From NCBI GenBank assembly GCA_947040495.1, contig CAMRBQ010000016.1, positions 1-35,079 on the forward strand: 35,079 nucleotides of DNA. Direction: 5' to 3'. The DNA comes from an uncultured Spirochaetia bacterium. GTDB taxonomy: Bacteria; Spirochaetota; Brachyspiria; Brachyspirales; Brachyspiraceae. The translations under genes and the position numbers were made by a program. A model generated the notes under the pieces. That model was not told the origin of the DNA. It was given only the letters and a program-made list of their open reading frames with translations, and searched no databases. Each line of letters starts with the position of its first letter. The first letter of the stretch is position 1. Positions 16,951-34,521 of this stretch are shown here, piece after piece.

Positions 16951-16987
16951 AAACATACTCCTAATTTTTAATTATATTCAAAAATAT

Positions 16988-18205
16988 TTATTTAATATTT
17001 TTTTTATCAATCTTTAATTTTTTTATCTCTGCTTTCATTTTAACAATATTTTGACTATAATCTTTACTCCTATCAGAATTCATATGCTCTATTTTGATAA
17101 GTAACTCATCAATATCAAATTCTATAGCCAATATTTTCATCTTTTTGTTATCAGATTTTTTCACAGTATTTGCAAGTTTAATTCTATATACATCTATAAA
17201 CACAGAAATAATAACAACAATACCAATAGTGAAATATTGGAAAAATTGTTCAACACCAACTGAAGGTAGACCAGATTTTAATACACTCATTATATAGACA
17301 CCTATCACAGTTCCTGATATAGAGCCAACACCACCAGAAAGTGAAGTTCCTCCTATAACAACACCAGCAATAGCATCTAATTCATAACCTTGTCCAGCTC
17401 CAGGGCTTATTCCAGAGTAGCTAGCAGCAAAAGCAATCCCTGCTAATCCCACATAAAAACCACATATGGCATATGCCATTATCTTCCATTTTTTTGTTTT
17501 AACACCCGAAAGCCTAGCAGCCTCTTCATTACTTCCTACAGCAAATATATATCTACCAATAACTGTTTTATTTAATATAACAGCAGCTAATATTGCAAAG
17601 AACAAAAGTACAAAAGCACCCAATGGAAAATTATTACTAGTAGCATTAAATAATGACCTAAACCACCAGCCCCCCGGCTCTGTTATTGTTGGATAATATA
17701 TTGTTTGTGAATTTGATACTATTCCTGAAAGGCCTTTTGTAACCATAAGAGTACCAAGTGTAGCAATAAATGGAGGAAGGTTCATATATGAAACAAGCAC
17801 GCCATTTATTACACCAACAGTTACACCTAAAAGCACTACAATAATTAGAACAAGCCACATGGGCAAGCCAGTATTTGTAAGTAAAACACCGCCAGACATA
17901 GCAGCAAATAATGCAGAAGAACCTATCGAAAGCTCTATGCCCCCTGTTATGATTGGAAATGTAACTCCTATTGCTAGAAAACCTATAAAATAGGAATGTC
18001 TTAATATTAAGGTAAATGTATCAAATGAGAAAAAATTTCTCCCAAATATGCAAAAAAATATGTATATAATTACAAGAGCAGCTACAGTTAAAAGTTTCTG
18101 TAGACCATTCCTTTTTACATAATTTTTCGTTTTTCTCAATCTTCTATTCACAGAAGACTTAAATCCTAGCTTCCCTGTAAATGTGTTCGTTTCTAAATCA
18201 TACAT
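16988..18205 (-). CDS. Sugar ABC transporter permease (RbsC/MglC type) with C-terminal extension
   Basis: 405 residues from ATG 18205, which has AAGGAG 8 bases upstream; the frame extends to GTG 18223. Core features of BPD_transp_2 permeases are present: GVTFPIITGGIELSIGSSAL, LPPFIATLGTLMVTKGLSG, GSNEEAARLSGVKTKKWKI (ATPase contact loop) and ELDAIAGVVIGGTSLSGGVG. RbsC/MglC proteins are about 320-340 residues. Here a polar N-terminus of ~35 residues and a charged C-terminal tail of ~66 residues (after FIDVYRIKLAN) are added. The tail looks helical, possibly coiled coil, and would lie in the cytoplasm. With the ATPase at 18233 and lipoprotein at 15931 it forms a sugar importer, presumably for L-fucose. 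Confidence 0.88.
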   Translation of the reverse strand: MYDLETNTFTGKLGFKSSVNRRLRKTKNYVKRNGLQKLLTVAALVIIYIFFCIFGRNFFSFDTFTLILRHSYFIGFLAIGVTFPIITGGIELSIGSSALFAAMSGGVLLTNTGLPMWLVLIIVVLLGVTVGVINGVLVSYMNLPPFIATLGTLMVTKGLSGIVSNSQTIYYPTITEPGGWWFRSLFNATSNNFPLGAFVLLFFAILAAVILNKTVIGRYIFAVGSNEEAARLSGVKTKKWKIMAYAICGFYVGLAGIAFAASYSGISPGAGQGYELDAIAGVVIGGTSLSGGVGSISGTVIGVYIMSVLKSGLPSVGVEQFFQYFTIGIVVIISVFIDVYRIKLANTVKKSDNKKMKILAIEFDIDELLIKIEHMNSDRSKDYSQNIVKMKAEIKKLKIDKKNIK

Positions 18206-18232
18206 ACATTTTACTCCTTTCACATCTTTTAA

Positions 18233-19738
18233 TTATCTTGATTGCCTTATTGTTGCATATTGCATAATTGATTCTTGAGATGCCTCTTTTATATCAAGGA
18301 CACCAGTAGTCTTGCCTTCAGACATAATAATAATTCTATCACTCATCCTCAGTATTTCTACCAAATCAGAGCTTATCATTATGATTGACTTTCCCAATGA
18401 AGCTAAATCATTTATAAGTTTATATATCTCACTTTTTGCTCCAACATCTATACCACGAGTAGGCTCATCAAAAATTAGTATACGACATTCTTTTATAAGC
18501 CAGTTTGCTATAATAACTTTTTGTTGATTACCTCCACTTAAATTTTTAACTAATTGCATAATAGAAGGTGTTTTTATTTTTAAAGATTGTACTTGCTCTT
18601 CTACAGTTTTTTTGATGCCATTATCATCTACAAATACACCATTTGAAAATTTATCATAATTACCAAGTAGCATATTAGATGATATAGAAAGTTCTAATGC
18701 AAGACCATATTCTTTTCTATCTTCAGATAAATAACCAATACCATTTGCAATGGCATCTACAGGGCTATTTATATTCACAGGTTTGCCATCAATATAAATA
18801 TTGCCGCCATCCTTTTTATCTGCCCCAAATATAGCCCGAGCTGTTTCGGTACGACCTGCCCCCATAAGTCCAGCAAATCCTAAAACTTCACCTTCATATA
18901 AAGAAAAACTAGCGTCACGCACAGCTTCTCCAATACTTAGATTTTTTACATCTAATACAACCTTCGCATCAGCCTTCACAGTGCTTTCAGATTTTGGGTC
19001 TTCATATATTACACGCCCAACCATCATATTCACAATTTCATTTTTATTTGTATCTTTTATATTTTTTGTAGCAACATATTCACCATCTCTAATAATTGTA
19101 ACCCTATCAGATATCAGGAATAATTCATCCAATCGATGTGATATATATACGATAGATGCTCCCTGCTCTTTAAGGTCTCTTATTATTCTAAATAGCTCTT
19201 TTGATTCTGTATCTGTCAATGCTGCTGTCGGTTCATCTAATATAAGTATCTTTGAATCATGAGTAAGTGATTTTGCTATTTCCACTAATTGCTGCTTGCC
19301 CACAGATAATTTACTTATTTTATCTTTTGGACTAATATCCACATTCATTTTCTTGAATATTTCAGCAGATTTATTATTCATTTTTTCATCATCTAAAAAT
19401 AGATTCATGAATTTTCTAGACTCTTGACCTATATAAATATTCTGTGCAACAGTGAGATGATTCATTAAATTAAGTTCTTGATGTACTATAGATATACCCT
19501 GTTCTTGAGCATCTTTTGGCTCTTTAATCTCAAGAGGCTTACCAAAATATTCTATAACACCGCCATCTTTTTTATGAATACCAGAAAGTATTTTCATCAA
19601 TGTAGATTTACCAGCACCATTCTCACCAACAAGGGAATGAACTTCACCTTTTCTTAAATCAAAACTGAAATTTTTTAAAGCATGTACGCCTTTAAAATAC
19701 TTTTCTATATTTTTCATCAACAAAATATTATCTGCCAT
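18233..19738 (-). CDS. Sugar ABC transporter ATPase, two-domain (RbsA/MglA type)
   Basis: 501 residues with two fused nucleotide-binding domains. N-terminal domain: Walker A GENGAGKSTL, signature LSVGKQQLVEIAKSL and Walker B ILILDEPTAALT. C-terminal domain: degenerate Walker A GLMGAGRTE, signature LSGGNQQKVIIANWL and Walker B ILIFDEPTRGIDVGAKSEI. This asymmetry is normal for the RbsA/MglA/XylG family. It sits on the cytoplasmic side of the permease encoded 27 bases downstream and powers uptake. Start ATG 19738 has AGGGG upstream. fucI lies 85 bases upstream and shares the direction. Confidence 0.92.
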   Translation of the reverse strand: MADNILLMKNIEKYFKGVHALKNFSFDLRKGEVHSLVGENGAGKSTLMKILSGIHKKDGGVIEYFGKPLEIKEPKDAQEQGISIVHQELNLMNHLTVAQNIYIGQESRKFMNLFLDDEKMNNKSAEIFKKMNVDISPKDKISKLSVGKQQLVEIAKSLTHDSKILILDEPTAALTDTESKELFRIIRDLKEQGASIVYISHRLDELFLISDRVTIIRDGEYVATKNIKDTNKNEIVNMMVGRVIYEDPKSESTVKADAKVVLDVKNLSIGEAVRDASFSLYEGEVLGFAGLMGAGRTETARAIFGADKKDGGNIYIDGKPVNINSPVDAIANGIGYLSEDRKEYGLALELSISSNMLLGNYDKFSNGVFVDDNGIKKTVEEQVQSLKIKTPSIMQLVKNLSGGNQQKVIIANWLIKECRILIFDEPTRGIDVGAKSEIYKLINDLASLGKSIIMISSDLVEILRMSDRIIIMSEGKTTGVLDIKEASQESIMQYATIRQSR

Positions 19739-19823
19739 ACTAACCCCTATAAAAAATATTAATGCTTATCCAATTATTATAACAATAAGAAAAGCACTAA
19801 TATAAATAGAAACAAAATTAAAA

Positions 19824-21617
19824 CTATTTTTTTAACTTACCATATAATGGACCTAATGCATCACAAGCTCTATAATCTGCCCCTTCCATACTATCAGTAC
19901 CAAAAGCACTCCATACCTTAGGTCTAAATATACGTGATGGAGCAACATTATGCATAGCAACAGGTATACGTAGCATAGAAGCAAGGGTTATAAACTTATC
20001 GCCTATATGACCATATGAAACAACACCATGATTAGCACCCCATGTATCCATAACATTATGCACAGTTGTAAATGCACCACTGCCTGTAAGTATTGGAGCA
20101 AACCATGTTGTAGGCCATGTAAAATTTGTACGCCTATATAATGCTTCATGTACATCACTATCAAGTTCTACTGTATAACCTTCAGCAATTTGAAGTATTG
20201 GACCAAGCCCTTTTATAAGATTTAGCCTTGTCATAGTAACAGGCATTTCACATTCTGTTGAAAACTGAGAAGAGTATCCACCTCCTCTAAAGTATGTCAA
20301 CTCAGCTGGGCACCATTTTGTAGATTTAAGACATTCATTCATCTCTGCCTCTGTTATATCCCAGAAAGATTTCATAACATTTTTGCCTTCACCATTTTTT
20401 TGCTTACCACATCCATCAATTGCAGCAGCACCACTATTAATAAGGTGTATTATTCCATTTGCCGCTTTACCTTTCAATTCTTTTCCAGTAACACGCTTCA
20501 CAGCACTTGGCGACCAATATGTTCTAACATCAGCAAATACTTGGGCTGTTTTTGAAATAAGATGGCCAAATGTCATAGCCATTCCATTCATGCAATCATT
20601 CTCTGTAGCAACTATAAATGATTGTCTAATGCCATTCCAATCAAATGATGAGTTTAATATAGATTCTGCAAAATCACAGTTTGGCATAAAATCAGTCCAA
20701 TGCCTCTGTCCTTGAAAACCAGAAGCTATCGCATTATGACCTTCTGCCTCTTCTGTATATCCCATATCTTTAAGTTTTTTATTACCAACCATAAGGTCTT
20801 TAATAATAAGAGCCATTTTTATAGATATTTCCCAAGCCTTATCTTTAGTTTCTCTGTCTTGTTGAGTTTCTTTTGGATTAGGGTCTTCACCTTCAGGGCA
20901 ATTCTTATTCTTCCATTCTAATGCTTTTTTATATTCATCTTTATCATAAATTTCACATTCAAGCCTTCTCTTTACTTCAATCATATCGACATACTCATTT
21001 CTCATGCCAAGATAATCGCTGAAAAAATGTGGGTCGGCAATGGAACCTGCTATACCCATAGATACATTACCTATACCTAAATAACTTTTACCTTTCATTG
21101 TAGCTACAGCAATCCCCGATTCAATAAATGCTCGTATCTTTCTTTTAACATCATTTGGGATAGAACTATCACCTGAATCTTGAACATCTTCTCCATATAT
21201 AGAAAAAACAGGCTCCCCAAATTGTGCATGAGCTGCCGCTACTGCTGCCAAATATACAGCACCCGGGCGTTCTGTTCCATTAAATCCCCAAACAGCTTTT
21301 GGTATATGTGGTGTCATATCCATAGTCTCAGTTCCATAACACCAACATGGTGTAACAGTTATAGAAAGCCCCACATTATTTTCAATAAATTTTTGCTGGC
21401 AACGAGAAGATTCTGCTATACCGCCAATTGTTTCATCAAATATATAGCATTCTACCTTCTCGCCACTCGCATGGTATAATGTAGATTCTATCAATGCTTT
21501 AACACCATTTACCATAGACATCGTTTGTTCTTCAAGAGATTCTCTTACTCCCTTCCTTCTCCCATCTATAGTGCCACGTATGCCAACCTTTGGTAATTTA
21601 CCATTTAATCTGAACAT
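19824..21617 (-). CDS. fucI: L-fucose isomerase
   Basis: 597 residues (E. coli FucI has 591), ATG 21617 with AAGGAG about 10 bases upstream. It converts L-fucose to L-fuculose, needs Mn2+, and is a cytoplasmic hexamer in known cases. The metal ligands of E. coli FucI (E337, D361, H528) correspond to E339 in [11 protein letters not shown]363 in FADVRTYW and H530 in [11 protein letters not shown], each shifted by two residues. The N-terminal [20 protein letters not shown] is also a FucI hallmark. No active-site loss is seen. Central gene of the fucose cluster. D-arabinose is a known side substrate of FucI enzymes. Confidence 0.96.
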
Positions 21618-21725
21618 CTAAATCGTTCTCCTTTTTAAATCAATTTTTTAATATTTAAAGTATAAAAAACAACTAATATTTCTATACATGTATTATCAAT
21701 ATATCATACTTACAAATCAACAAAA

Positions 21726-23111
21726 CTAATCTACTATAACACGAGAAACATTACTAATATCATTTGTATAACCTAAGGCATATAACTGCACTATAGCATT
21801 GCCTAATATAGAAGCCTCGGTAATACCAATTTCTATTTTTCTTTCTGTACTACTGGCGATTATTTGTAAAAGCAAATAATCCTTCGTACCGCCACCACCT
21901 ACTATGATACTATCTATTTTTGTATTTGACGTGCTTTCTATATCGGTAACAGCAAGTCTATATAAATTTCCAAGACTATTATAAGCTAGACGACATATAT
22001 CCTCTGTAGATAGTATTTCTTTATTATATTTTTTTCTATATCTATCTTTAAAAAGCAAAATCATGCTGTCTGGGTATATAAACTCATCATCTATATCTAC
22101 AAAGGCATTTTCAGAAGAGCTTTTGGCATATTCGCATATATCATCATAGGAATATTTTTGACCAAGCCTTTCATAATCTTCTTTTATAGCACGTAACAAC
22201 CAAGTACCTAAAAACATTTTCATATAGCGAATAGATGAATTAAAAGAACCCTCATTTACAAGTGCCCTCTTTACTCCATGTTTGTCTGTTACAGGCTCAT
22301 CTACCTCTATACCAAATAAAGACCATGACCCATTTAATAGATATGCCGCATTTGGCTTAATATTTAAACCTACAACGGCACTAGCAGTATCATGACCTGC
22401 TACTGATACTACAAGTGGAATGTTTCCTTTTAAGCCCATCTCATCAAATATTTCTTTCTTTAATAAACATTTATAATTTCCAGGCATAACTATGTCAGAT
22501 TTTATATCATTAGGAATTGATAGTTTTTTAAATATAGTATCAGACCAATCACGCTTACGGACGTCCATTAGTCCTGATGTTGAGGATATAGTATATTCCC
22601 AAGTATATTCACCAGTTAAAAGATAGAAAAATAAGTTTGGCATAAATAAAAACTTAGAAGCACCTTGTTCTATAACTTTATCAATATGAATATCTTTGTA
22701 TATCTGATATATTGAATTAAAATTAAAATATGCATTGCCATTGATCTGATACAAATCATCTAATGGTATAATTGAATGCACTTTATCTATAATATCTTTT
22801 TCTATTTCTTCTTTATATGACCTTGGGTTCTTAAGTACATCCCCATTTTTATCAATCCAAGCATAATCACAACCCCATGTATCAATAGCAATAGATTCTA
22901 TATTAGGCTCAAATTCAAATGCTTTTTTAATAGATAATTTTATATTTGAAAACAGATAATCTATATTCCAAAATAATTTATTATTATCCTTTATAATCTC
23001 GTTTGGGAAACGATGAACTTCATTCAATGAAAATGATTCATTATTATATGAAACAACAATAGCTCTGCCACTGCCTGAACCTAAATCTATCGACAATAAA
23101 GAAACTGACAT
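21726..23111 (-). CDS. fucK: FGGY kinase, L-fuculokinase (rhamnulokinase-like sequence)
   Basis: 461 residues, ATG 23111 with AAGGAT about 9 bases upstream. FGGY kinase pattern: LLSIDLGSGSGRAIVV at the N-terminus (phosphate-1 loop), IESIAIDTWGCDYAWIDKNG, VSVAGHDTASAVVG carrying the catalytic Asp, and IIVGGGGTKDYLLLQIIAS near the C-terminus (adenosine motif). The 'EVHRFPNE' and 'DTWGCDY' elements are those of rhamnulokinase (RhaB), which is close to fuculokinase. Its position between fucA and fucI makes L-fuculose the expected substrate, giving L-fuculose-1-phosphate. Specificity cannot be fixed from sequence alone. Confidence 0.82.
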   Translation of the reverse strand: MSVSLLSIDLGSGSGRAIVVSYNNESFSLNEVHRFPNEIIKDNNKLFWNIDYLFSNIKLSIKKAFEFEPNIESIAIDTWGCDYAWIDKNGDVLKNPRSYKEEIEKDIIDKVHSIIPLDDLYQINGNAYFNFNSIYQIYKDIHIDKVIEQGASKFLFMPNLFFYLLTGEYTWEYTISSTSGLMDVRKRDWSDTIFKKLSIPNDIKSDIVMPGNYKCLLKKEIFDEMGLKGNIPLVVSVAGHDTASAVVGLNIKPNAAYLLNGSWSLFGIEVDEPVTDKHGVKRALVNEGSFNSSIRYMKMFLGTWLLRAIKEDYERLGQKYSYDDICEYAKSSSENAFVDIDDEFIYPDSMILLFKDRYRKKYNKEILSTEDICRLAYNSLGNLYRLAVTDIESTSNTKIDSIIVGGGGTKDYLLLQIIASSTERKIEIGITEASILGNAIVQLYALGYTNDISNVSRVIVD

Positions 23112-23148
23112 CTTACTAAATATCCTTATAATATAAAGTTAAACCAAT

Positions 23149-23799
23149 CTATTTTTTTACCTGTCCATATGTCTTAAATAATTCTTTCATCTTAATCATC
23201 TCCGTATCATCTAATACAGCTGGCTCCATTCCTGTTTGCTTGCTAAGTATATATAGTTGAGAAATATATTCTATTTGAACTAATATACCATATGCTCCAT
23301 CTATATCATCAGCAACAGTAACTATACCATGATTAGCCAAGAGTACTGCTTTTGCTTCACCCATAGTTTTAAATGCATTTTCTGCCAATTCTTTCGTCCC
23401 AAATGTGGCATATTCTGTGCATCTTACTTCTTTATCACCTGCAGCCATTATCATATAATCTATCGCAGGCAGACTTTTTCTTAGGCAAGCTACAGTTGTT
23501 GAATATACTGTATGGGCATGTAGGCAGGCACTAACATCATCTCTATTTTTATAAAAAATACAATGTAAATCTAATTCACTCGTAGCTTTTTTACCCTCTA
23601 GCAGTGTACCATCTAATTTAACTACAGAAACATCTTCTGCTGTCAAAACATCATATGGAATACCTGTAGGTGATAATGCTACAAGATTCTCTTTTCTATT
23701 ATAAATACTAACATTACCTGAAGTACCATTTGTATAGCCTTCTTTCAACATTTTATTACATATTGATACTATTTTCTCTCTTTCAGTTTTTAATAACAT
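23149..23799 (-). CDS. fucA: L-fuculose-1-phosphate aldolase (class II aldolase/adducin family)
   Basis: 216 residues (E. coli FucA 215). ATG 23799 with GGGG 5 bases upstream. It cleaves L-fuculose-1-phosphate to dihydroxyacetone phosphate and L-lactaldehyde using Zn2+. The catalytic Glu is in ATSELDLH; the zinc ligands are in LHAHTVYST (two His) and LLANHG (third His). NGTSGNVS near residue 26 is the phosphate-binding loop. It is the first gene of the fucose operon, 38 bases before fucK. The related RhaD and AraD are less likely given length and fucI context. No lactaldehyde reductase or dehydrogenase is in the window. Confidence 0.9.
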   Translation of the reverse strand: MLLKTEREKIVSICNKMLKEGYTNGTSGNVSIYNRKENLVALSPTGIPYDVLTAEDVSVVKLDGTLLEGKKATSELDLHCIFYKNRDDVSACLHAHTVYSTTVACLRKSLPAIDYMIMAAGDKEVRCTEYATFGTKELAENAFKTMGEAKAVLLANHGIVTVADDIDGAYGILVQIEYISQLYILSKQTGMEPAVLDDTEMIKMKELFKTYGQVKK

Positions 23800-23988: not shown

Positions 23989-24729
23989 TTAATACTTTGC
24001 TTGAGCAGTACTCCATTTTTCAAACAAAGGTTCATTAAATTCAAGATTGTCTCTTTCATATGCATTTTTTAATATAGTTAGAATAGATTTTATCCCAACA
24101 CCAAATCTATCACAACCACATTCAATCATACTATCTATATCTTCTATAGTTCTAACTCCACCTGCTGCTTTTATTTTTGCTCTATCTTTTATAGTGCTTT
24201 TTATAGTCTTAATTGTCTCAACAGTTGTTGGTTTATTACCCCAGCCTGTCCCTGTTTTTACATATGTTGTACCAGCATCAACTGCAATCTCAGATGCTTT
24301 TATGATTTCTTCATTTGTTAAATAACATATTTCTAATATAGTTTTAACTTCAAGTGGATATACAGCTTCAACAACCATAGCAATATCTCTTTTTACTAAT
24401 TCATAATCTTTTGATTTTAAAGCACCAACATTTATAACCATGTCTATTTCGCCACAACCAACAGCCTTCATTTTTTTAGCACATTCAACTTTAGATTCTG
24501 TAGTATCCGCACCAGAAGGGAAACCAGCAACTCCTCCAAGGATTACACTAGTATTATTGCCAAGACATTTATGTAACATTTCTGTAAAACAAGGCATGGC
24601 AAAAGTAGCCTTAAAATTATACCTATTAGCTATCTCTGCTATAGATTTAATCTCTTCATATGTCACGTCAGTTCGTACAGAACTTATATCAATAATTTTT
24701 GGTAATTCTTTGCAACTTAATTTATTCAT
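23989..24729 (-). CDS. DeoC-family aldolase, divergent (deoxyribose-phosphate aldolase-like)
   Basis: 246 residues from ATG 24729 (AGGAG 8 bases upstream; a TTG one codon earlier is less likely). Class I aldolase of the DeoC family with the catalytic set retained: D96 in EIDMVINVGAL, Schiff-base K158 in YVKTGTGWG, and K187 in IKAAGGVRT, matching D102, K167 and K201 of E. coli DeoC. Two places differ from typical DeoC. The loop after K158 reads KTGTGWGNKPTTVE instead of KTSTGFGxxGAT. The phosphate-binding tail, normally G-[AT]-S-S, reads FGVGIKSIL (209-217). The substrate may thus differ from 2-deoxyribose-5-phosphate. It lies 43 bases behind the FGGY kinase and no nucleoside phosphorylase or phosphopentomutase is nearby, so it belongs to a sugar pathway, not nucleoside salvage. 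Confidence 0.8.
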   Translation of the reverse strand: MNKLSCKELPKIIDISSVRTDVTYEEIKSIAEIANRYNFKATFAMPCFTEMLHKCLGNNTSVILGGVAGFPSGADTTESKVECAKKMKAVGCGEIDMVINVGALKSKDYELVKRDIAMVVEAVYPLEVKTILEICYLTNEEIIKASEIAVDAGTTYVKTGTGWGNKPTTVETIKTIKSTIKDRAKIKAAGGVRTIEDIDSMIECGCDRFGVGIKSILTILKNAYERDNLEFNEPLFEKWSTAQAKY

Positions 24730-24772
24730 CAATGTTACTCCTTAAAAATTTTATTCTATCATAAATTAATAT

Positions 24773-26314
24773 CTATATAAATTTTCTAGCCTCATCTCCA
24801 TACATGCTCATAAAACTCGATGCACTTTTGAAAAGGTTAAACATATTTTCATATACTTTTTGATTTTTTTCTAATGGGGTATATACTTTTTGAATAACAT
24901 GCAGCTCTTTTATAGGTGAAAAATCTTTCCATGCATTGATTCCAACAGCAACCAAAGCAGCAGCACCTAATGCAGCAGATTGTTGATCTATAGATGTTTT
25001 TAATACTTTAACGCCATAAATGTCTGAAATCATTTGTATCCAAAAATCATCCTTTGCACCACCACCTACAACAATCATTTCATCTTTAAATTTAGTCATA
25101 TTAGCAAGTACATCAAAAGCTATTTTTAATCCAAATGTTATTCCCTCAAGTGAAGCTCGAATCATATCTTCTCTAGTATGATTTAATGTTAATCCTATAA
25201 AAGCACCCATTATGTTTTGACTTTTATCAAGACTATTACCACCCGAAAGAGATGGATTAAATATAAGCCCTCTTGAACCTATAGGCGAATTCTCTGCAAT
25301 CTTAGAACATGCTCTATATACATACTCTTCACCAACTTCTAAAAGAACATCTTTACATATCTCTTTGACAACCCAATTAAAACTTGAACCAGCAGAAAAT
25401 ATAGAAGTGGCTGATGTATACATATTATCTATAACATGGGCAAAAACAAAAGGTCTATATTTTAAGTCTATGAGAGGCTTCTCTGATGAAACTGCTATCC
25501 AACTAGATGACCCAAGCGAATTATATACACTACCACTATCTATATTTCTTGCCCCTAAAGCCATACATGAATTATCAACTCCACCCGACACAACGACAAC
25601 GTCTTCTGTAAGCCCCATTAGTAAAGCTATATCTTTTTTTAATTTCCCAATTATATCTGTAGATAATCCGATATCTGGCAATAGACTCTCTTTTATAGAA
25701 GCTGCATTTAATATATCATTAGAATATTTTCTCGAAAATAAATCATAAGCCCCTAAACCTGATGCATATGAGTGGTCAGTTGATATATTACCTGTAAGTC
25801 TATAGTTTACATAATCCTTTGTTCCCAAAATATAATCTGTCTTTAAAAACAGTTCTGGATATTTATCTTTAAACCATAAAATTTTAAAAATTGTATATAA
25901 TGATGGAGGAAAACCATTGCCTGTCATTTCATACCATTTATCTTCTGGTATTTTTAAAAACACAGTGTCTAAATGTTTTTTTTCAGGGCGTAAATCCGAC
26001 CATATTGGTACAGAGTTTAATATAAGATTACCACTTTTATCTAACGGAACCATCCCAAGAGAAAAGCCAGAAATACCCAACCCACGAACTTGATTTTTAT
26101 CTATAGCAGTTTTTTCCAATATACTTTTCGATGAAGAAATAATTGAATTAAACCAATCATCTGGATTTTGCTCATGATAACTAGCACTGATATATTTAGT
26201 CTGATAGGGCACGAAGTCTGAACCTAAACAATATCCACTATAGTCATATAAAGATGCTTTACATCCACCAGTACCTAAATCAAAAGCGATAATATATTCT
26301 ATACTCTTAAACAT
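24773..26314 (-). CDS. FGGY-family sugar or polyol kinase (xylulokinase-like)
   Basis: 513 residues, ATG 26314 with GGGGA 9 bases upstream. Motifs: IAFDLGTGGCKASLYD (phosphate-1), PIWSDLRP (sugar-binding, 103-110), VVSGGVDNSCMALGAR with D247 as catalytic base, and MIVVGGGAKDDFWIQMISD (adenosine). Overall resembles XylB and the broad FGGY group that phosphorylates ketopentoses, pentitols and tetritols at the terminal hydroxyl. It is the first gene of the leftward arm, with the DeoC-like aldolase behind it and the GntR regulator and xylose-type transporter divergent. No xylose isomerase is present, so D-xylulose from xylose is not the obvious substrate. A pentitol or deoxy/anhydro-pentose derivative is my inference. 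Confidence 0.85.
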   Translation of the reverse strand: MFKSIEYIIAFDLGTGGCKASLYDYSGYCLGSDFVPYQTKYISASYHEQNPDDWFNSIISSSKSILEKTAIDKNQVRGLGISGFSLGMVPLDKSGNLILNSVPIWSDLRPEKKHLDTVFLKIPEDKWYEMTGNGFPPSLYTIFKILWFKDKYPELFLKTDYILGTKDYVNYRLTGNISTDHSYASGLGAYDLFSRKYSNDILNAASIKESLLPDIGLSTDIIGKLKKDIALLMGLTEDVVVVSGGVDNSCMALGARNIDSGSVYNSLGSSSWIAVSSEKPLIDLKYRPFVFAHVIDNMYTSATSIFSAGSSFNWVVKEICKDVLLEVGEEYVYRACSKIAENSPIGSRGLIFNPSLSGGNSLDKSQNIMGAFIGLTLNHTREDMIRASLEGITFGLKIAFDVLANMTKFKDEMIVVGGGAKDDFWIQMISDIYGVKVLKTSIDQQSAALGAAALVAVGINAWKDFSPIKELHVIQKVYTPLEKNQKVYENMFNLFKSASSFMSMYGDEARKFI

Positions 26315-26350: not shown

Positions 26351-26364
26351 CATTACTAATTCAT
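26351..26364 (-). promoter_or_regulatory. Candidate operator, copy 1 (kinase arm)
   Basis: Read on the minus strand: ATGAATTAGTAATG. It matches the copy upstream of the sugar-binding-protein gene (27395-27408) in 13 of 14 bases, in the same orientation relative to the gene served. It lies just downstream of the kinase promoter. A GntR repressor site is the simplest reading. Confidence 0.5.
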
Positions 26365-26385: not shown

Positions 26386-26414
26386 AATATAATTAAAATA
26401 TATCTCTTTGTCAA
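26386..26414 (-). promoter_or_regulatory. Promoter of FGGY kinase-deoC arm
   Basis: Minus strand: TTGACA (26409-26414), 17-base spacer, TATATT (26386-26391). An alternative -10, TATAAT, lies at 26379-26384 but would need a 24-base spacer. Confidence 0.55.
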
Positions 26415-26541: not shown

Positions 26542-27255
26542 ATGACTAAAAAACCAATGTACTATGATATCTATCTCAAGATAAAAAATATGATTAGCAA
26601 TGGGGAGTATGCTGTTGGCGATTTTCTTCCAACAGAGAATGACCTCGAAAAAATATACCGAGTAAGTAGAACAACAATAAGAAAAGTTATATCTTTACTT
26701 TCTAGTGATGGTTACATCGAAGTAAAACAAGGCAGTGGAACTAGGGTTGCCAACTTCAATTCTACACAAAGATTTAATAGAGTAACATCAATATCTGAAA
26801 CATTGCGAAAAAATAATAATATAGTTACAACAAAAAGTATTTTTATAGATACAATAAAACCCGAAAAAAAAATAGCTGAAAAGTTAAAAATCGATGTAAA
26901 TGATGATATATATCGTGTTCAAAGAGTTATATTAGCAAATGATATACCTGTTGCAATAATAAAAAACTATATCCATCATAAATTTACCCCAAAAATAGAT
27001 AAAAAAGTAAATGATATAAAATCATTATATATTTTTTTAGAAAGTGAATATAATCTACGAATAGACTCCGCAAAGGATTTAATTAGCGCAAAAAATTCTG
27101 ACTTCATCGAGTCAGAACTACTTAATGTTGATATAGGTACATCATTAATGTCTATAGAAAGAACAAGCTTTCAAAAGAATATACCTATAACATATGATGA
27201 ATCGATTATTCGTGCTGATAAATATAAAATAGAAGTGCATACAAAAGGGCGTTAA
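26542..27255 (+). CDS. GntR-family regulator, HutC/UTRA subfamily
   Basis: 237 residues. N-terminal winged helix-turn-helix: MYYDIYLKIKNMISNGEYAV, LPTENDLEKIYRVSRTTIRK (recognition helix, about residues 30-49) and the wing YIEVKQGSGTRV. The C-terminal UTRA ligand domain (about 85-230) shows the typical YRVQRVILANDIPVAI and the ending ITYDESIIRADKYKIEV. UTRA domains often bind a sugar phosphate or related effector. It lies between the two arms of the module and probably represses both, with relief by a pathway intermediate. Ribosome site before ATG 26542 is weak, which may keep levels low. Confidence 0.9.
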   Translation: MTKKPMYYDIYLKIKNMISNGEYAVGDFLPTENDLEKIYRVSRTTIRKVISLLSSDGYIEVKQGSGTRVANFNSTQRFNRVTSISETLRKNNNIVTTKSIFIDTIKPEKKIAEKLKIDVNDDIYRVQRVILANDIPVAIIKNYIHHKFTPKIDKKVNDIKSLYIFLESEYNLRIDSAKDLISAKNSDFIESELLNVDIGTSLMSIERTSFQKNIPITYDESIIRADKYKIEVHTKGR

Positions 27256-27356: not shown

Positions 27357-27384
27357 TTGACAAGTTAATATTTTTGACTATAAT
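27357..27384 (+). promoter_or_regulatory. Strong promoter of the transporter-GRE operon
   Basis: Perfect consensus TTGACA (27357-27362), 16-base spacer, TATAAT (27379-27384), 80 bases before the ATG at 27465. Such a perfect promoter is normally held by a repressor. Confidence 0.8.
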
Positions 27385-27394
27385 TAGTAACGAT

Positions 27395-27432
27395 ATGTAT
27401 TAGTAATGAAATTTTAAATAAAACTAATTCAT
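27395..27432 (+). promoter_or_regulatory. Candidate operator, copy 2 (transporter arm), with inverted half
   Basis: ATGTATTAGTAATG (27395-27408) starts 10 bases after the -10 box, overlapping the expected transcript start. ACTAATTCAT (27423-27432) is the inverted half (its complement ATGAATTAGT matches ATGTATTAGT in 9 of 10). This position is classical for a repressor operator. See the partner site at 26351-26364. Confidence 0.5.
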
Positions 27433-27464: not shown

Positions 27465-28553
27465 ATGAAAAATAAAATTATTGTAGGTTTGATGATTATA
27501 ATGTCTTTTATAATTATTTCATGCGATTCTAATAAAAAAAGCAATGAACCAAAAACAGTCGCAAATATTAAAGTTGGAATATCGATGGCGACATTACAAG
27601 AAGAAAGATGGAAGAAAGACAGAGATATCGTAATAGAAGAACTTAAAAAATTAGGAGTAAAAGAAGAGAATATACTTGTTCAATCCGCTGATGGAAATGA
27701 ACAAAAACAAGTAACACAATCAGAAAACCTAATTACTCAAGGAATTGATGTACTTATTATATTTGCACAAAATGGTGAAGCAGCTGGACCTATTGTTAGT
27801 TCTGCTAATGATTCTGATGTAGAAGTTGTAGCTGTTGATAGAATTATAAGAAACTCTGATTTAGATTTTTTTATAAGTTATGATGCATACACTATAGGAA
27901 CAATACAAGGTGAATATGTTACAAAGATAATAGATTCTGGCAATTGGATAATGATAGCAGGTGCACCACAAGACCCTAATGCCGCTTTAATTAGAAATGG
28001 GCAAATGGAATATGTACAGCCACTTATCGATAACAAAAAAATTAATGTTGTATTAGACCAATCTGCAAACTATTGGAATCCTGATGAGGCTTTACTATAT
28101 ACAGAGCAAGGGCTAACAGCAAACAATAATGATATATCTGTTGTATTCACCTCAAATGATGGAACAGCTGGTGCTGCTATAGAAGCTTTAAAAGACCAAG
28201 GACTTGCTGGTAAAGTTATAGTTCCAGGTCTTGATGCAGACTTAGCCGCTTGCCAAAGAATAGTTGCTGGAACACAATCGATGACTGTATATCGAAAACT
28301 TTCTATTATTGATAAATATGCCGCAAGAGCAGCTGTCGCCTTAGCCTTAGATGAAGATATAAATCAATCATTAGATATAGATATTACAAGTGTAAACAAT
28401 GGAAAAATAAATGTGCCATCTATACTATTAAAAGGTAAAGATCAAATGTTTGCTGTAGATAATAGCAACATGGAAGAAATTGTTAAAGATGGATGGTTAA
28501 AGAAAGAAGATATTTATAAAAACGTACCAAAATCAGAATGGCCTAACTGGTAA
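27465..28553 (+). CDS. Xylose-type ABC transporter substrate-binding lipoprotein (XylF-like)
   Basis: 362 residues, ATG 27465 with AAGGAG close upstream. Lipoprotein signal ending IIISC (Cys20). The mature part follows the XylF family: VGISMATLQEERWKKDRDIV, then ADGNEQKQVTQSENLITQGI, AVDRIIRNSDLDFFISYDAY, PGLDADLAACQRIVAGTQSM and MTVYRKL. XylF in E. coli binds D-xylose; family members also bind other pentoses and alditols, and the enzymes alongside argue for a non-standard ligand. It is the first gene of the operon and likely the most expressed. Confidence 0.88.
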   Translation: MKNKIIVGLMIIMSFIIISCDSNKKSNEPKTVANIKVGISMATLQEERWKKDRDIVIEELKKLGVKEENILVQSADGNEQKQVTQSENLITQGIDVLIIFAQNGEAAGPIVSSANDSDVEVVAVDRIIRNSDLDFFISYDAYTIGTIQGEYVTKIIDSGNWIMIAGAPQDPNAALIRNGQMEYVQPLIDNKKINVVLDQSANYWNPDEALLYTEQGLTANNNDISVVFTSNDGTAGAAIEALKDQGLAGKVIVPGLDADLAACQRIVAGTQSMTVYRKLSIIDKYAARAAVALALDEDINQSLDIDITSVNNGKINVPSILLKGKDQMFAVDNSNMEEIVKDGWLKKEDIYKNVPKSEWPNW

Positions 28554-28631: not shown

Positions 28632-30143
28632 TTGGAAAATTATATTCTTGAAATGAAAAACATAAGTAAAAAATTTTCCCATATAAAAGCCCTTGATAAA
28701 GTTAACTTAAAAGTATCTAAGGGTGAGATTCATGCTTTATGTGGTGAAAATGGTGCCGGAAAATCTACTTTAATGAAAATATTAAGTGGAGTATACCCTC
28801 ATAAGACATATGATGGCGATATAATTATCAATGGAGAAATAAAAAAATTCCATTCAGTGAGAGATTCTGAGAAGGCGCATATATCTATTATATATCAAGA
28901 ACTTGCACTTGTTCGTGATATTACTGTAGCTGAAAATATTTTTTTAGGAAAACTAAAAGCTAAATGTGGGATTGTCAATTGGAATAAAATATACGCTGAA
29001 TCTAAAAATATTTTAGATGAAATGGAGATATCAATTAACCTAAGCAAAAATGTCAAAGATATAGGTATAGGTCAGCAGCAGCTCATAGAAATAGCTAAAG
29101 CACTTATTTTAAACTCTGATATTTTGATTCTTGATGAGCCCACAGCAGCTTTAACTAAAAATGAAACAAAGATACTAATGAATATACTAATGGGTCTAAA
29201 AAGTAAGGGAGTAACTTGCATTCTAATTACCCATAAATTAGATGAGGTATTTGATATATCAGATAGAATATCTATTTTAAGAGATGGGTCTATTGTTTCA
29301 TCATTTAAAACATCTGAAACAAATGAAAATGAAATTATAAAACATATGGTTGGCAGAGAACTCACACAACGTTATCCCAACTCTACAAGAATATGTAAAG
29401 AATCTAAATTTAAAGTTTCAAATTTTAGTTTTGTAGACCATAATGAGAATACTCTTGTCTCTGATATTAATTTTGAAGTTAGAAGTGGTGAAATAGTAGG
29501 GATATCTGGGCTCATGGGTGCTGGACGAACAGAGCTCATATCAAGCATTTTTGGATTTATGAAGGGGAAAAGCAAAGGTGATATATACCTCGATGGAAAA
29601 AAAATTAATATAAAATGCCCTAAAGATGCAATAAATTTTGGCATAGCAATGCTTAATGAAGATAGAAAGCAATATGGGCTTATATTAGAACAATCTATAA
29701 GTAATAATATTTCTATATCAAGTTTATCTTTATTTAGTACTTTAGGTGTGCTAAATAAAGATAAAGAATATAAGGATACCGTTCTATATTCTGAAGAAAT
29801 TGGCGTAAAAGCCCCGTCTGTTTCTGCTAAAGTTTCTACACTAAGCGGAGGCAATCAACAAAAAGTTCTTTTAGCTCGATGTCTAATGACTAAGCCAAAG
29901 GTTTTATTTTTAGATGAACCTACACGAGGAATAGATGTTGGGGCAAAATATGAAATATATGTATTGATGAATAAACTCGCATCTGAAGGAACATCTATTA
30001 TTATGATATCTTCAGAATTGCCAGAAATAATTGGGATGAGTGATAGAGTTTTAGTTATGAGAGAAGGTAAAATTGTAGCTCAGTTTCAAAAAGATGAAGT
30101 AGACCAGGAAAAAATAATGACAAAATCTGCAGGAGGCGAGTAA
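28632..30143 (+). CDS. Xylose-type ABC transporter ATPase (XylG-like)
   Basis: 503 residues. Start is TTG at 28632, supported by GGAG (28621-28624) 7 bases upstream; the first in-frame ATG is at residue 8. Two nucleotide-binding domains: first with Walker A GENGAGKSTLMKIL, signature IGIGQQQLIEIAKAL and Walker B LILDEPTAALT; second with GLMGAGRTELIS, LSGGNQQKVLLARCL and LFLDEPTRGIDVGAKYEIY. The YPHKTYDGDIIING insertion after the first Walker A is typical of XylG. It energises uptake together with the permease that begins immediately after its stop codon. A 78-base gap before the gene contains a near-duplicate TATTCTATTT(A/G)GA. Confidence 0.9.
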   Translation: MENYILEMKNISKKFSHIKALDKVNLKVSKGEIHALCGENGAGKSTLMKILSGVYPHKTYDGDIIINGEIKKFHSVRDSEKAHISIIYQELALVRDITVAENIFLGKLKAKCGIVNWNKIYAESKNILDEMEISINLSKNVKDIGIGQQQLIEIAKALILNSDILILDEPTAALTKNETKILMNILMGLKSKGVTCILITHKLDEVFDISDRISILRDGSIVSSFKTSETNENEIIKHMVGRELTQRYPNSTRICKESKFKVSNFSFVDHNENTLVSDINFEVRSGEIVGISGLMGAGRTELISSIFGFMKGKSKGDIYLDGKKINIKCPKDAINFGIAMLNEDRKQYGLILEQSISNNISISSLSLFSTLGVLNKDKEYKDTVLYSEEIGVKAPSVSAKVSTLSGGNQQKVLLARCLMTKPKVLFLDEPTRGIDVGAKYEIYVLMNKLASEGTSIIMISSELPEIIGMSDRVLVMREGKIVAQFQKDEVDQEKIMTKSAGGE

Positions 30144-31292
30144 ATGAATAAATACTTTAATAAACAATACATAAAACAAAATGCAAAATCTTATATAATG
30201 ATTTTATCACTATTTTTTATTGGAATAGTATTTTCTGTTTTAACAGATGGTATATTTATAAGTAGTAGAAATCTTTCTAATCTTGCAAGACAGACTGCTG
30301 TTGTTGGAGTTATATCTATAGCCATGATGTTTGTTATTATCGCAGGGCATATAGACCTTTCTATCGGTTCTGTATTAGGTTGCTGTGGAACAATTGCTGC
30401 CGTACTACAAGTTTGGTTAGGTTGGTCTACTCCATCTACAATAATAGCTGTTGTTTTAATCGGTGTTCTTATTGGTGCTTGGCAGGGATTTTGGGTATCA
30501 TATAGAAATGTACCAGCTTTCATTGTTACATTAGGTGGATTGCTCATCTTTAAAGGTGTAAAACTTGGTATATCGAAGAGTATGTCTATATCTCCTATGC
30601 AACCAAGTTTTAGTATAATAGGTCAAGGATATTTACCGGCCTCTGTTGGATGGATAATAGCTTTCATAGCTATAGTAGTTATAGTTATATCTACTCTGAA
30701 ATCGAGAAAATCAAAAGAAAAATATAACATAGAAACATCTTCTATGACTATTGATATATTAAAAATGATAATGCTATCATTTTTTGTATTTCTAACAACA
30801 TTTATATTTAATAGTTATCAAGGTATTCCTGTCCCTGTATTAATACTAATATCTTTGGGTATTTTATTTTACTTTATAGCAAATAATACAACATATGGTA
30901 GAAGCATATATTCTATTGGTGGAAATCTAGAAGCTTCTACACTTGCTGGTATAAAAACAAAGAGAATTGTCATGTATATGTTTATGCTAACTGGGGCACT
31001 TGCTGCCTTCGCAGGAATAATTTTAACTGCAAGATTAGATGCTGCAACTTCAGCTGCTGGCGATTCTATGGAACTTGATGCTATAGCTGCTTGTGTTGTT
31101 GGTGGTGTTAGTATGGTGGGTGGAGTTGGAAAAATATCTGGCGTTCTTATAGGTGCTCTTATAATGGCTGCACTTGATAACGGAATGAGTTTAATAAATC
31201 TAGAAAACTTTTGGCAGTTTATTGTTAAAGGACTTGTATTAATTGTTGCTGTCTGGGCTGATATGTCTCTTAACAATGATAAAAAATGTTAA
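30144..31292 (+). CDS. Xylose-type ABC transporter permease (XylH-like)
   Basis: 382 residues, ATG directly abutting the TAA of the ATPase gene, so translation is coupled; GGAGG lies inside the end of that gene. Permease of the BPD_transp_2 family with XylH length (E. coli 393). Conserved parts: VVIAGHIDLSIGSVLG, VPAFIVTLGGLLIFKGV, GGNLEASTLAGIKTKRI and ELDAIAACVVGGVSMVGGVG. The long loop after helix six (about residues 185-205), which is polar (KSRKSKEKYNIETSS), is characteristic of XylH as opposed to RbsC. About ten membrane helices predicted. Confidence 0.9.
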   Translation: MNKYFNKQYIKQNAKSYIMILSLFFIGIVFSVLTDGIFISSRNLSNLARQTAVVGVISIAMMFVIIAGHIDLSIGSVLGCCGTIAAVLQVWLGWSTPSTIIAVVLIGVLIGAWQGFWVSYRNVPAFIVTLGGLLIFKGVKLGISKSMSISPMQPSFSIIGQGYLPASVGWIIAFIAIVVIVISTLKSRKSKEKYNIETSSMTIDILKMIMLSFFVFLTTFIFNSYQGIPVPVLILISLGILFYFIANNTTYGRSIYSIGGNLEASTLAGIKTKRIVMYMFMLTGALAAFAGIILTARLDAATSAAGDSMELDAIAACVVGGVSMVGGVGKISGVLIGALIMAALDNGMSLINLENFWQFIVKGLVLIVAVWADMSLNNDKKC

Positions 31293-31342: not shown

Positions 31343-32242
31343 ATGAATAAAAAACATACCGGCTTAGTTTTTGATATACAAAGATTTTCACTACATGATG
31401 GTCCTGGTATAAGAACAACAGTTTTTTTAAAAGGATGTAATTTAAATTGTTTATGGTGTCATAATCCTGAAGGAAAATCCAACAAGAGACAATTAAAATA
31501 CTTGGATGAAAAATGTATATTATGTAAAAAATGTGAAAACGCTTGTAAATTCAATGTACATTATTTATCAGAAAATAAACATTTTGTAAATTTTAATTCA
31601 TGTGTACTATGTGAATCTTGTGTAAGAACATGCCCATCAAAAGCACTTGAGATAGTTGGTATTGAATACTCTGCAGAAGAGATTATGGATATTGTTTCCA
31701 AAGATGAGGCATTTTTTGGTGATGATGGTGGTGTTAGTTTTTCTGGTGGAGAGCCTCTAAATCAAGATAATTTTTTACTTGATTTATTAAAGTCTGCTAA
31801 AAAAAGAAACTATACTACATGTGTCGATACCTGTGGTTATAATCTATGGGAGTCATACGAAAAAATAATACCATTTACAGATTATATCTTATATGACATA
31901 AAAGGAATAAACCAAGCAAAGCATATTGAAGCAACATCAAAAGATAATAATCTTATATTGGATAACTTGAAAAAACTTAATAAATATAATAAAAAAATAT
32001 TTATAAGAATACCTTTAATCGTTAATTATAGTTCTAGCGAAAGTGAAGTACAATTAATGGCTGATTTTATTAAAGATATTAAAGTAGAAGCAGTTACTCT
32101 CATGCCATATCATACACTTGGTCGCTCAAAATATGAAATGCTTGGCTATGAGGCAGCACCTGTTTTTGATAAACCTAGTAAAATAGAAATGGAAAAATAT
32201 ACAAAAATATTTCAAGATAAAGGCATTAAAATCATAAAATAA
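31343..32242 (+). CDS. Glycyl-radical enzyme activating enzyme (radical SAM, PflA family)
   Basis: 299 residues. N-terminal IQRFSLHDGPGIRTTVFLKG is the GRE-activase signature. The radical SAM cluster site is C32-x3-C36-x2-C39 (CNLNCLWC). Two extra 4Fe-4S ferredoxin motifs follow: C58, C61, C64, C68 and C87, C90, C93, C97. This places it with activases of glycerol dehydratase, CutC and related GREs rather than the short PflA of pyruvate formate-lyase. SAM-binding FSGGEP and the C-terminal TLMPYHTLGRSKYEMLGYE are present. It would abstract hydrogen from the glycine of the adjacent GRE under strictly anaerobic conditions. It lies 17 bases before the GRE start. Confidence 0.95.
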   Translation: MNKKHTGLVFDIQRFSLHDGPGIRTTVFLKGCNLNCLWCHNPEGKSNKRQLKYLDEKCILCKKCENACKFNVHYLSENKHFVNFNSCVLCESCVRTCPSKALEIVGIEYSAEEIMDIVSKDEAFFGDDGGVSFSGGEPLNQDNFLLDLLKSAKKRNYTTCVDTCGYNLWESYEKIIPFTDYILYDIKGINQAKHIEATSKDNNLILDNLKKLNKYNKKIFIRIPLIVNYSSSESEVQLMADFIKDIKVEAVTLMPYHTLGRSKYEMLGYEAAPVFDKPSKIEMEKYTKIFQDKGIKIIK

Positions 32243-32259
32243 ATTATGTGAGGACATTC

Positions 32260-34521
32260 ATGCAGAGATTAAAAACATTAAGAGAAAAAGCGATAAAAAC
32301 AGAGCATGGTAAAGCGAGAATTGTCATGCCTAAAAGTTGGCAAACAAAAGATATGGATTGTGGTTTATCACAAAGAAAGGCTCATAGCATCAAAATGATA
32401 TTAGATAATATGCCACTATATATTGGAGATGAAGAATTAATTGTTGGAACGAGAACTATATATGGTGAAACTGATGAAACAGGTAATAATCAATCTTCTT
32501 TTAGTTATATTGCTATGCCATCATATGTAAATGAAAAAGATATAGAATACTTTGGATTTAATCATGAAAATGTTACAAAAGCTCATTATGCTCCCGACTA
32601 TGATATCGTTATAAGTTTAGGTATAGACGGCATTATAAAAAAAACAGAAGATGCAATGGAGCATTATAAATTAGAAGATCAACTTGATTTTGGTCATAGT
32701 GTTTTAATTGTAAATAAAGCATTACAAAAATTTATCCTAAGGTATAGTGATTACGCCAAAGAACTTGCAAATAAAGAATCTAATGAAAGACGCAAAAAAG
32801 AACTTTTAGAAATATCAGATACATGCAAAAATATATCGAGCAATCCCGCTTCAAATCTAAAAGAAAGCTGTCAATTATTTTGGTTTTTATATTTAGCTGT
32901 CATTATAGAAAACTTCCAATTTATAAACTATGGAAGAATAGATCAAATACTTAATAAATATATAACTAATGAAACAAATTTAGAAATAGAGGAAACTATT
33001 GGCGCTTTACTCATAAAGATGTATGACCAATTAGATTTATTTCTACTCGATAAAAATCTTATGGGTAAATATTCAGCCCAACATAATATCACAATAGGTG
33101 GAGTCAAAAGAGATGGAACTGATGGCTCTAACAAAGTTACAAAAGCAATATTAAATGCATTAAAAATAACAAGATTACCAGAACCTTTAATATCTATTAG
33201 AGTTAATAGTATCTCGCCAGACTGGCTATTAGATTTATCATGTGGATTATCGGTAAGCGGTCTCAACTGTATGGCATATTATAATGATGATAAAGTTATA
33301 GAGAGCTTAAACTCTGTAGGTATTGATATTGAAGATGCAAGAGATTATGGCTTTGGTTTATGCCAAGACATTTTAATCCCAGGACGAGGTGACCATTATT
33401 GTAGTGGTGGAATAAATCTAACATATATATTACTCGATTTTATTGATAAGCATAAAAATGATAATCTTACATATAGAGAATTCTATGATTTATATAAACA
33501 AACATTAAAAGAAAATATTAAAAATAATATTAATGGCTATAATGATTGGGAATATGCTTTGAATGAATACAATAAAGGCAATAAAGATATATACTTTAAA
33601 TATATTAAAGAAGGAAAAATAGATGTTGATGCACCTTCTTTGGGCTTATCTACTGCTCAAGCTGCTGCAGGTGATACAAAAGAACTTAAAGAAATATATG
33701 TACAAACATTAATGTCTGCTCTTCCATTTACATCTAGTTTATATTATGGATGTATTGAAACTGGCATTGATATTTCAAGGGGTGGCAGTATTAGAAAGGA
33801 TAAGGGCGTCATGATTCTAAGCCCTGTTGTTGCATTTAATAGTTTGATTGCATTAAAGAAAGTTGTTTTTAAAGATGAAATTTATACATTAAATGAAGTT
33901 CATAATGCTTTGAAACATAACTTTGAAGGCTTTGAAGAGATGCGACAAATACTCTGGAATAGTCCTAAGTGGGCTAATGACGATGATTATGTTGATAATG
34001 ATGTTGTAGAACTTATACATTTTGTAAGCGATGAAATAAATAAATATTCCACACCAAGTGGTGGGCGTCATCTATCTGGCATACATCAGCCTCATCCTGT
34101 ATTTGCGGGAAGAAATATTACAGCCACTCCAGAGGGCAGATTTTCTGGAACCCCTATCCCTATAACGATATCACCTGAAAATGGAACATTACATAATGGG
34201 CCACTTGCGGCTATGAAGTCGGCTTCTAAATTTGATTATCATCGCATTCAATGGAATAATTGTTTAATGCTTCAATATCACTCTTCTACATTTGCATCAG
34301 AAGATGGGGTTAAACAATTTTCCCAGATGACACAAAGATATTTTAAATTGGGTGGGCTACAACATCAACCAAATGTTGTTAATATCGAAAAATTAAAAAA
34401 TGCCCAAATAAACCCAAGTGAACATAAAGATTTAATCATTAGAATGTGGGGAGTTAGCGCACATTTTGTTGATCTGCCAAAGGATGTGCAAGATGAATTT
34501 ATAGCAAGATATGATACTTAA
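32260..34521 (+). CDS. Glycyl radical enzyme of unassigned subtype (C-Q-D active site)
   Basis: 753 residues from ATG 32260, chosen because AGGA (32251-32254) lies 5 bases upstream; a GTG at 32248 has no ribosome site. PFL-like domain: RKAHSIKMILDNMPLYIGDE, DLIVG-type strand, and LDFGHSVLIVNKAL (conserved G-H). The catalytic thiyl Cys is C368 in ARDYGFGLCQDILIPGRGDH; known dehydratases have G-C-V/I-E-P here, so Glu is replaced by Asp and Pro by Ile. A later GCIETGIDISRGG is the structural C-x-E-x-G-x-D motif, not the active site. The C-terminal radical loop reads R-M-W-G-V-S-A-H-F with Gly731. There is no adjacent Cys-Cys, so it is not pyruvate formate-lyase. The catalysed reaction is inferred only: dehydration or C-O cleavage of a polyol or anhydro-polyol (or its phosphate) feeding the DeoC-like aldolase. 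Confidence 0.9.
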   Translation: MQRLKTLREKAIKTEHGKARIVMPKSWQTKDMDCGLSQRKAHSIKMILDNMPLYIGDEELIVGTRTIYGETDETGNNQSSFSYIAMPSYVNEKDIEYFGFNHENVTKAHYAPDYDIVISLGIDGIIKKTEDAMEHYKLEDQLDFGHSVLIVNKALQKFILRYSDYAKELANKESNERRKKELLEISDTCKNISSNPASNLKESCQLFWFLYLAVIIENFQFINYGRIDQILNKYITNETNLEIEETIGALLIKMYDQLDLFLLDKNLMGKYSAQHNITIGGVKRDGTDGSNKVTKAILNALKITRLPEPLISIRVNSISPDWLLDLSCGLSVSGLNCMAYYNDDKVIESLNSVGIDIEDARDYGFGLCQDILIPGRGDHYCSGGINLTYILLDFIDKHKNDNLTYREFYDLYKQTLKENIKNNINGYNDWEYALNEYNKGNKDIYFKYIKEGKIDVDAPSLGLSTAQAAAGDTKELKEIYVQTLMSALPFTSSLYYGCIETGIDISRGGSIRKDKGVMILSPVVAFNSLIALKKVVFKDEIYTLNEVHNALKHNFEGFEEMRQILWNSPKWANDDDYVDNDVVELIHFVSDEINKYSTPSGGRHLSGIHQPHPVFAGRNITATPEGRFSGTPIPITISPENGTLHNGPLAAMKSASKFDYHRIQWNNCLMLQYHSSTFASEDGVKQFSQMTQRYFKLGGLQHQPNVVNIEKLKNAQINPSEHKDLIIRMWGVSAHFVDLPKDVQDEFIARYDT

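Follow-up and report, generated by a model that had tools for sequence, protein, structure and literature searches.

A rare glycyl radical enzyme subfamily with Cys-Gln-Asp in place of Cys-x-Glu, and its possible role in pentitol dehydration

Glycyl radical enzymes (GREs) are oxygen-sensitive radical enzymes. The window, that is, the whole 35,079-nucleotide stretch of DNA from an uncultured Spirochaetia bacterium analysed here, carries a gene for such an enzyme in which the residue two places after the presumed thiyl-radical Cys is Asp, not Glu. This raises three questions: whether the Asp truly occupies the position of the Glu, whether the change is peculiar to one genome or marks a group of enzymes, and which reaction such an enzyme might carry out.

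The Cys loop and its register

The gene (Table 1) can be read as 757 residues from a GTG at 32248 or as 753 residues from an ATG at 32260; the ATG, with GAGG six bases upstream, is the likelier start, but residues are numbered here from the GTG. By its sequence, the product is a full-length GRE: Cys372 and Gly735 are in register, and both the PFL-like domain (PF02901, 358 bits versus a cut-off of 24.3) and the Gly_radical domain (PF01228, 61 bits versus 22.2) score above the curated Pfam cut-offs. A phmmer alignment against the PDB places Cys372 on C433 of glycerol dehydratase (1r8w; ..GCVEPQKPG..), ungapped from ARDYG to PG, with Gln373 on Val434, Asp374 on Glu435 and Ile375 on Pro436. Profile–profile alignment of seven members of the family described below with eight classical GREs gave the identical register. 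The first-pass annotation of this DNA, which had read an Asp two residues after the Cys and an Ile for the usual Pro, is thus borne out. Mapping through a surveyed trans-4-hydroxyproline dehydratase (HypD), in which residue identities at R156, H160, D278, K326, S334, D339, C434, E436, Y450, T645 and G765 were all correct, puts Glu436 on Asp374 and His160 on His113.

Comparisons were made within a survey of 116 GREs, most of which come from 89 genomes of the class Clostridia; 109 of the 116 lie outside the family of the window protein. The possibility that another Cys is the thiyl residue, raised by the same annotation, was ruled out, as all 116 aligned sequences have a Cys in this column. The annotation was also right that the radical loop lacks the usual Tyr or Phe after its Gly: Val736 stands there, compared with Tyr, Phe or Trp in 101 of the 109 other GREs. 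With the shorter acid, the substrate geometry may differ, as the annotation proposed. An AlphaFold model built from a four-sequence alignment was too poor for use (pLDDT 51), and a scan of viral contigs for a deeper alignment yielded one relative.

Table 1 Features of the glycyl radical enzyme locus (window positions)
Feature	Positions	Strand	Basis or remark
DeoC-family deoxyribose-phosphate aldolase	23989..24732	-	TIGR00126, 187.6 bits vs cut-off 117.3; 54% identical to G1240 DeoC
FGGY-family kinase, XylB-like	24773..26314	-	under xylulokinase cut-off; 45% identical to kinase near G1240 GRE
ATGAATTAGTAATG, second copy of possible operator	26351..26364	-	downstream of kinase promoter-like site; suggestive
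Promoter-like site	26386..26414	-	before kinase–DeoC genes; 11/12 match
GntR/UTRA regulator	26542..27255	+	profile matches; 38% identical to GntR beside decayed G976 GRE operon
Promoter-like site TTGACA-16-TATAAT	27357..27384	+	before transporter–activase–GRE operon; 12/12 match
ATGTATTAGTAATG, possible shared operator	27395..27408	+	downstream of promoter-like site; suggestive
Substrate-binding protein, XylF-like	27465..28553	+	top PDB hit is E. coli D-xylose-binding protein, E 4e-75
Sugar ABC transporter ATP-binding protein, XylG-like	28632..30143	+	profile matches
CUT2-type sugar ABC transporter permease	30144..31292	+	profile matches
Radical SAM activating enzyme	31343..32242	+	TIGR02494, 320.8 bits vs cut-off 174; CxxxCxxC and two ferredoxin-type clusters
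Glycyl radical enzyme, CQD subfamily	32248..34521	+	Pfam domains; full-length relative 56% identical
His113	32584..32586	+	equivalent of catalytic His160 (HypD) and His164 (glycerol dehydratase)
Cys loop ARDYGFGLCQDILIPGRGDH	33337..33396	+	Cys372 codon TGC 33361-33363; Asp374 codon GAC 33367-33369
GIHQPHPV segment, residues 611-618	34078..34101	+	invariant 7/7; in no other surveyed GRE
Glycyl-radical loop RMWGVSAHF	34441..34467	+	Gly735 codon 34450-34452

The CQD family among glycyl radical enzymes

A first relative, 56% identical over its full length, was found in Christensenella intestinihominis by scanning genome contigs. Genome searches added loci in G449, G477, G1240, G1252 and G1300, and a C-terminal half in G976. 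This gives seven full-length members in seven genomes, the other six being 39–56% identical to the window protein; the count is a lower bound, as the searches sample genomes and the larger ones score the best two candidates per genome. All seven carry LCQD, R-[ML]-W-G-V-S-A and the equivalent of HypD His160. Since the same residues recur in seven genomes, CQD is neither chance nor a sequencing error, and drift within one genome is ruled out. Close homologues with C-x-E, which the first-pass annotation had said would overturn its reading, did not appear.

In a tree of GREs, the seven form one clade (support 100) on a stem of 1.0 changes per site, with a weakly placed C-W-E sister, L016 (support 86). 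The family is, at the thresholds used, rare and sharply bounded, because no further member was found among 393 genomes of the window's phylum besides the window's own or among 399 genomes of Christensenella's phylum besides Christensenella, and because full-length members score above 900 bits against about 412 for the next best proteins, a gap of about 500 bits. Horizontal transfer is suggested by the finding that the closest known relative of the window protein belongs to another phylum. Leu371, Gln373, Asp374, Gln278, Asp382, Tyr384, the GIHQPHPV segment, Trp734 and Val736 are fixed in the clade and rare or absent elsewhere; at the residue before the thiyl Cys, for example, 96 of the 109 other GREs have Gly where the family has Leu371. 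The HQPH stretch is a likely specificity element, because GIHQPHPV falls in the segment that in HypD holds the substrate-binding Thr645.

With the window protein, none of the curated NCBIfam GRE models attains its cut-off. The PFL2/glycerol dehydratase model TIGR01774 gives 331.2 bits (cut-off 678.2), the HypD model NF043068 288 bits (cut-off 1100), and the equivalog models for CutC, 3-sulfopropanediol dehydratase, indoleacetate decarboxylase and hydroxyphenylacetate decarboxylase 179–277 bits (cut-offs 1000–1150). Together with the invariant CQD and the single, sharply bounded clade, this gives good support to the earlier suggestion of a separate subfamily. As far as sequence can define one, this is a new subfamily, rare and previously unnamed, throughout which the CXE motif is altered while the enzyme is otherwise an intact GRE.

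The earlier annotation had also taken Glu to be the residue at this position in characterised enzymes. CXE is described as a conserved motif of GRE eliminases (PMC7077986, PMC8473560), in agreement with this claim. Outside these, Glu is not universal: 28 of the 109 other surveyed GREs, eight of them classical pyruvate formate-lyases, have a different residue. Counted over all 116 sequences, this position holds Glu 81 times, Asp and Ser nine times each (eight of the Ser sequences being pyruvate formate-lyases), Gln six times, Trp five times, Gly three times, Ala twice and Asn once. Seven of the nine Asp sequences are the CQD family; the remaining two read C-W-D and are scattered among other clades, in which this residue is not constant.

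The window protein resembles the B12-independent glycerol/1,2-propanediol dehydratases (PDB 1r8w, 5i2a) in family, in the register of its thiyl Cys and glycyl Gly, in the catalytic His (H164, here H113) and in having an activase of the same radical SAM class. It differs in overall sequence (about 30% identity) and at individual positions, where Glu435 is replaced by Asp374, Pro436 by Ile, Gly432 by Leu371, His281/Ser282 by Gln/Phe, Tyr339 by Gln278, Tyr640 by His613 and Tyr764 by Val736. HypD Cys434, His160 and Gly765 have direct equivalents, and among NCBIfam models it is that of the HypD activase that fits the window activase best (331 bits, under the cut-off of 425). By contrast, HypD Asp278, Lys326, Ser334, Asp339 and Tyr450 are not conserved, Asp278, Ser334, Asp339 and Tyr450 being replaced by Gln224, Met272, Ala277 and Gly388. 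Pyruvate formate-lyase, a distant GRE, also has a residue other than Glu after its thiyl Cys (C-V-S in the alignment), but carries two adjacent Cys in the loop and is of very low similarity (51 bits).

The survey also contains further small Clostridia clades in which Gln, Gly, Ala or Trp takes the place of the motif Glu (L094, L087, L092, L096, L098, L101, L105, L106, L108, L109, L115 and L118–L120); they seem to be GRE groups still to be explored. As many as 14 GRE matches occur in one genome. Another departure from CXE, C-A-S, is seen in the Cys loop of a GRE from an uncultured Eubacteriales bacterium (L011:9497-11911).

Gene neighbourhood and proposed reaction

On the plus strand, the genes run in the order GntR regulator, XylF-like binding protein, ATPase, permease, activase and GRE, with 17 bp between the end of the activase gene and the ATG of the GRE. 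Divergent from these, on the minus strand, lie the FGGY kinase and DeoC, followed by a fucose-type gene set that has a promoter-like site to itself. The window DeoC keeps the catalytic residues of deoxyribose-phosphate aldolases, an Asp and two Lys. These neighbours lend moderate support to the hypothesis that the enzyme dehydrates a five-carbon sugar alcohol. A pentitol (or its phosphate) is favoured as substrate because a pentitol minus water is a 2-deoxypentose (C5H12O5 − H2O = C5H10O4); the pentose alternative would need a reduction step, and no gene for such a step was seen in the cluster. The kinase and DeoC give indirect support to the pentitol phosphates named in the first-pass annotation. 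We put at roughly 0.4 the probability that the protein is an active eliminase of a distinct CQD subfamily, a dehydratase of a pentitol or its phosphate that feeds DeoC, with Asp374 paired with His113.

The activity of the enzyme, the role of Asp374 as the base, the substrate and the order of the steps are what we infer, and the reaction would run as follows. The activase would place a radical on Gly735, which would hand it to Cys372. The resulting thiyl radical would abstract hydrogen from C1 of the pentitol or pentitol phosphate, and Asp374, forming with His113 the counterpart of the usual Glu–His pair, would accept the hydroxyl proton. Loss of the adjoining hydroxyl as water would then yield a 2-deoxypentose or its 5-phosphate. 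The FGGY kinase could phosphorylate either the pentitol before the radical step or the deoxypentose after it, and DeoC would cleave 2-deoxyribose 5-phosphate to glyceraldehyde 3-phosphate and acetaldehyde. A parallel is offered by YbiW and PflD of E. coli (PDB 8id7, 8yjo), anhydrohexitol-6-phosphate lyases in a sugar-alcohol pathway that likewise includes a phosphorylation step (PMC12441222). These differ from the window protein in their hexitol-derived substrates, their use of a phosphotransferase system and their weak overall sequence matches (185 and 224 bits).

The loci of the relatives bear on this proposal in both directions. An activase adjoins the GRE in six of the seven full-length loci (window, Christensenella, G449, G477, G1252 and G1300). 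Christensenella and G449 have in common with the window the binding protein, ATPase, permease, activase and GRE; the XylF-like proteins of the window and Christensenella are 55% identical, but the kinase differs, that of the Christensenella operon being more xylulokinase-like. DeoC is not beside the GRE in four of the seven loci (Christensenella, G449, G477 and G1252), and in G1300 it adjoins the kinase on a different contig from the GRE; this minority linkage is a weak point of the pentitol reading. A second may be the XylF-like binding protein, which would suit a pyranose better than a linear pentitol. Both would fit an active eliminase whose substrate is unrelated to DeoC, be it a pentose, another C5 compound or an anhydro-pentitol whose ring is opened in the way that YbiW and PflD open anhydrohexitol phosphates, with the kinase and DeoC forming a separate pathway nearby. 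So would the occurrence in Christensenella of the DeoC–kinase pair beside short-chain dehydrogenases without a GRE, because of which the pair seems to form a module supplied by enzymes of more than one type.

Against such an unrelated substrate, the same clades of GRE, kinase and DeoC are found side by side in three loci. In G1240, they lie in one run (DeoC, kinase, Fe-alcohol dehydrogenase, activase and GRE), and G976 has a decayed operon (L027:8200-11270) with GntR, an internally deleted DeoC, an intact kinase and the C-terminal GRE half, the activase being gone. The window shares 54% identity with these loci in DeoC and 44–45% in the kinase. By chance, a DeoC would fall within 12 kb of the GRE in roughly 1% of genomes (estimated as 24 kb over about 2.7 Mb), and its proximity in two of the seven other genomes has a chance probability of about 0.002, somewhat higher given that G1240 and G976 belong to the same family and are thus not fully independent evidence. 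We regard a substrate unrelated to DeoC as rather unlikely, though a serious competitor.

The role given to Asp374 can be questioned separately. It may be structural, with Asp382, His613, His616 or Gln278, which never vary within the family and are seldom or never found outside it, doing the acid–base work, perhaps in another elimination or in C–C cleavage. The motif Glu of HypD is not thought to be the base that forms the ketyl radical (PMC7077986), and other uncharacterised GREs vary at this position. However, HypD is inactivated by E436Q and IslA by E470Q (PMC7077986, PMC8473560), an acid and not a neutral residue is fixed in all seven members, and the equivalent of HypD His160 is kept. A non-catalytic Asp374 is, in our judgement, unlikely. 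That the GRE is non-catalytic or decaying is very improbable: the G976 relative has lost its Cys half and part of DeoC (although this could also be an assembly fault) and the activase beside the G1240 GRE reads in two frames (L037:4365-5228; a real frameshift or one of assembly), but the seven full-length genes are intact, with invariant Cys, Gly loop and active-site residues, and the window activase is intact with its CxxxCxxC.

If the pentitol reading is true, sugar alcohols would have an additional, radical-based route to deoxyribose phosphate. We advance only tentatively the broader claim of a new GRE reaction, in which Cys-x-Asp dehydration of a pentitol (phosphate) to 2-deoxyribose (phosphate) would open, via DeoC, a redox-neutral anaerobic route to ethanol and pyruvate. 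In the literature searched, which took in few subscription papers, there was no published GRE for xylitol, pentitol, ribitol or deoxyribose, although an earlier report may exist. A clade with a naturally fixed Asp is a ready test of how far the carboxylate can move, and CQD provides a marker for a GRE group in anaerobes.

The repeated element downstream of the two promoter-like sites (Table 1) is suggestive of an operator common to both divergent operons. A 25-base match between them was reached by 6 of 300 shuffles, the window length having been chosen after the match was seen, and promoter-like sites overall are no more numerous than expected by chance. The fucose-type operon (15931-23799, minus strand) encodes an aldolase, a kinase, a FucI-like isomerase and a CUT2 transporter; this isomerase shares 56% identity with a FucI whose gene lies about 6 kb from the G477 GRE. 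The window's genome also holds a second, ordinary C-V-E GRE of 813 residues on a short contig, G000:C143 (L002, L029).
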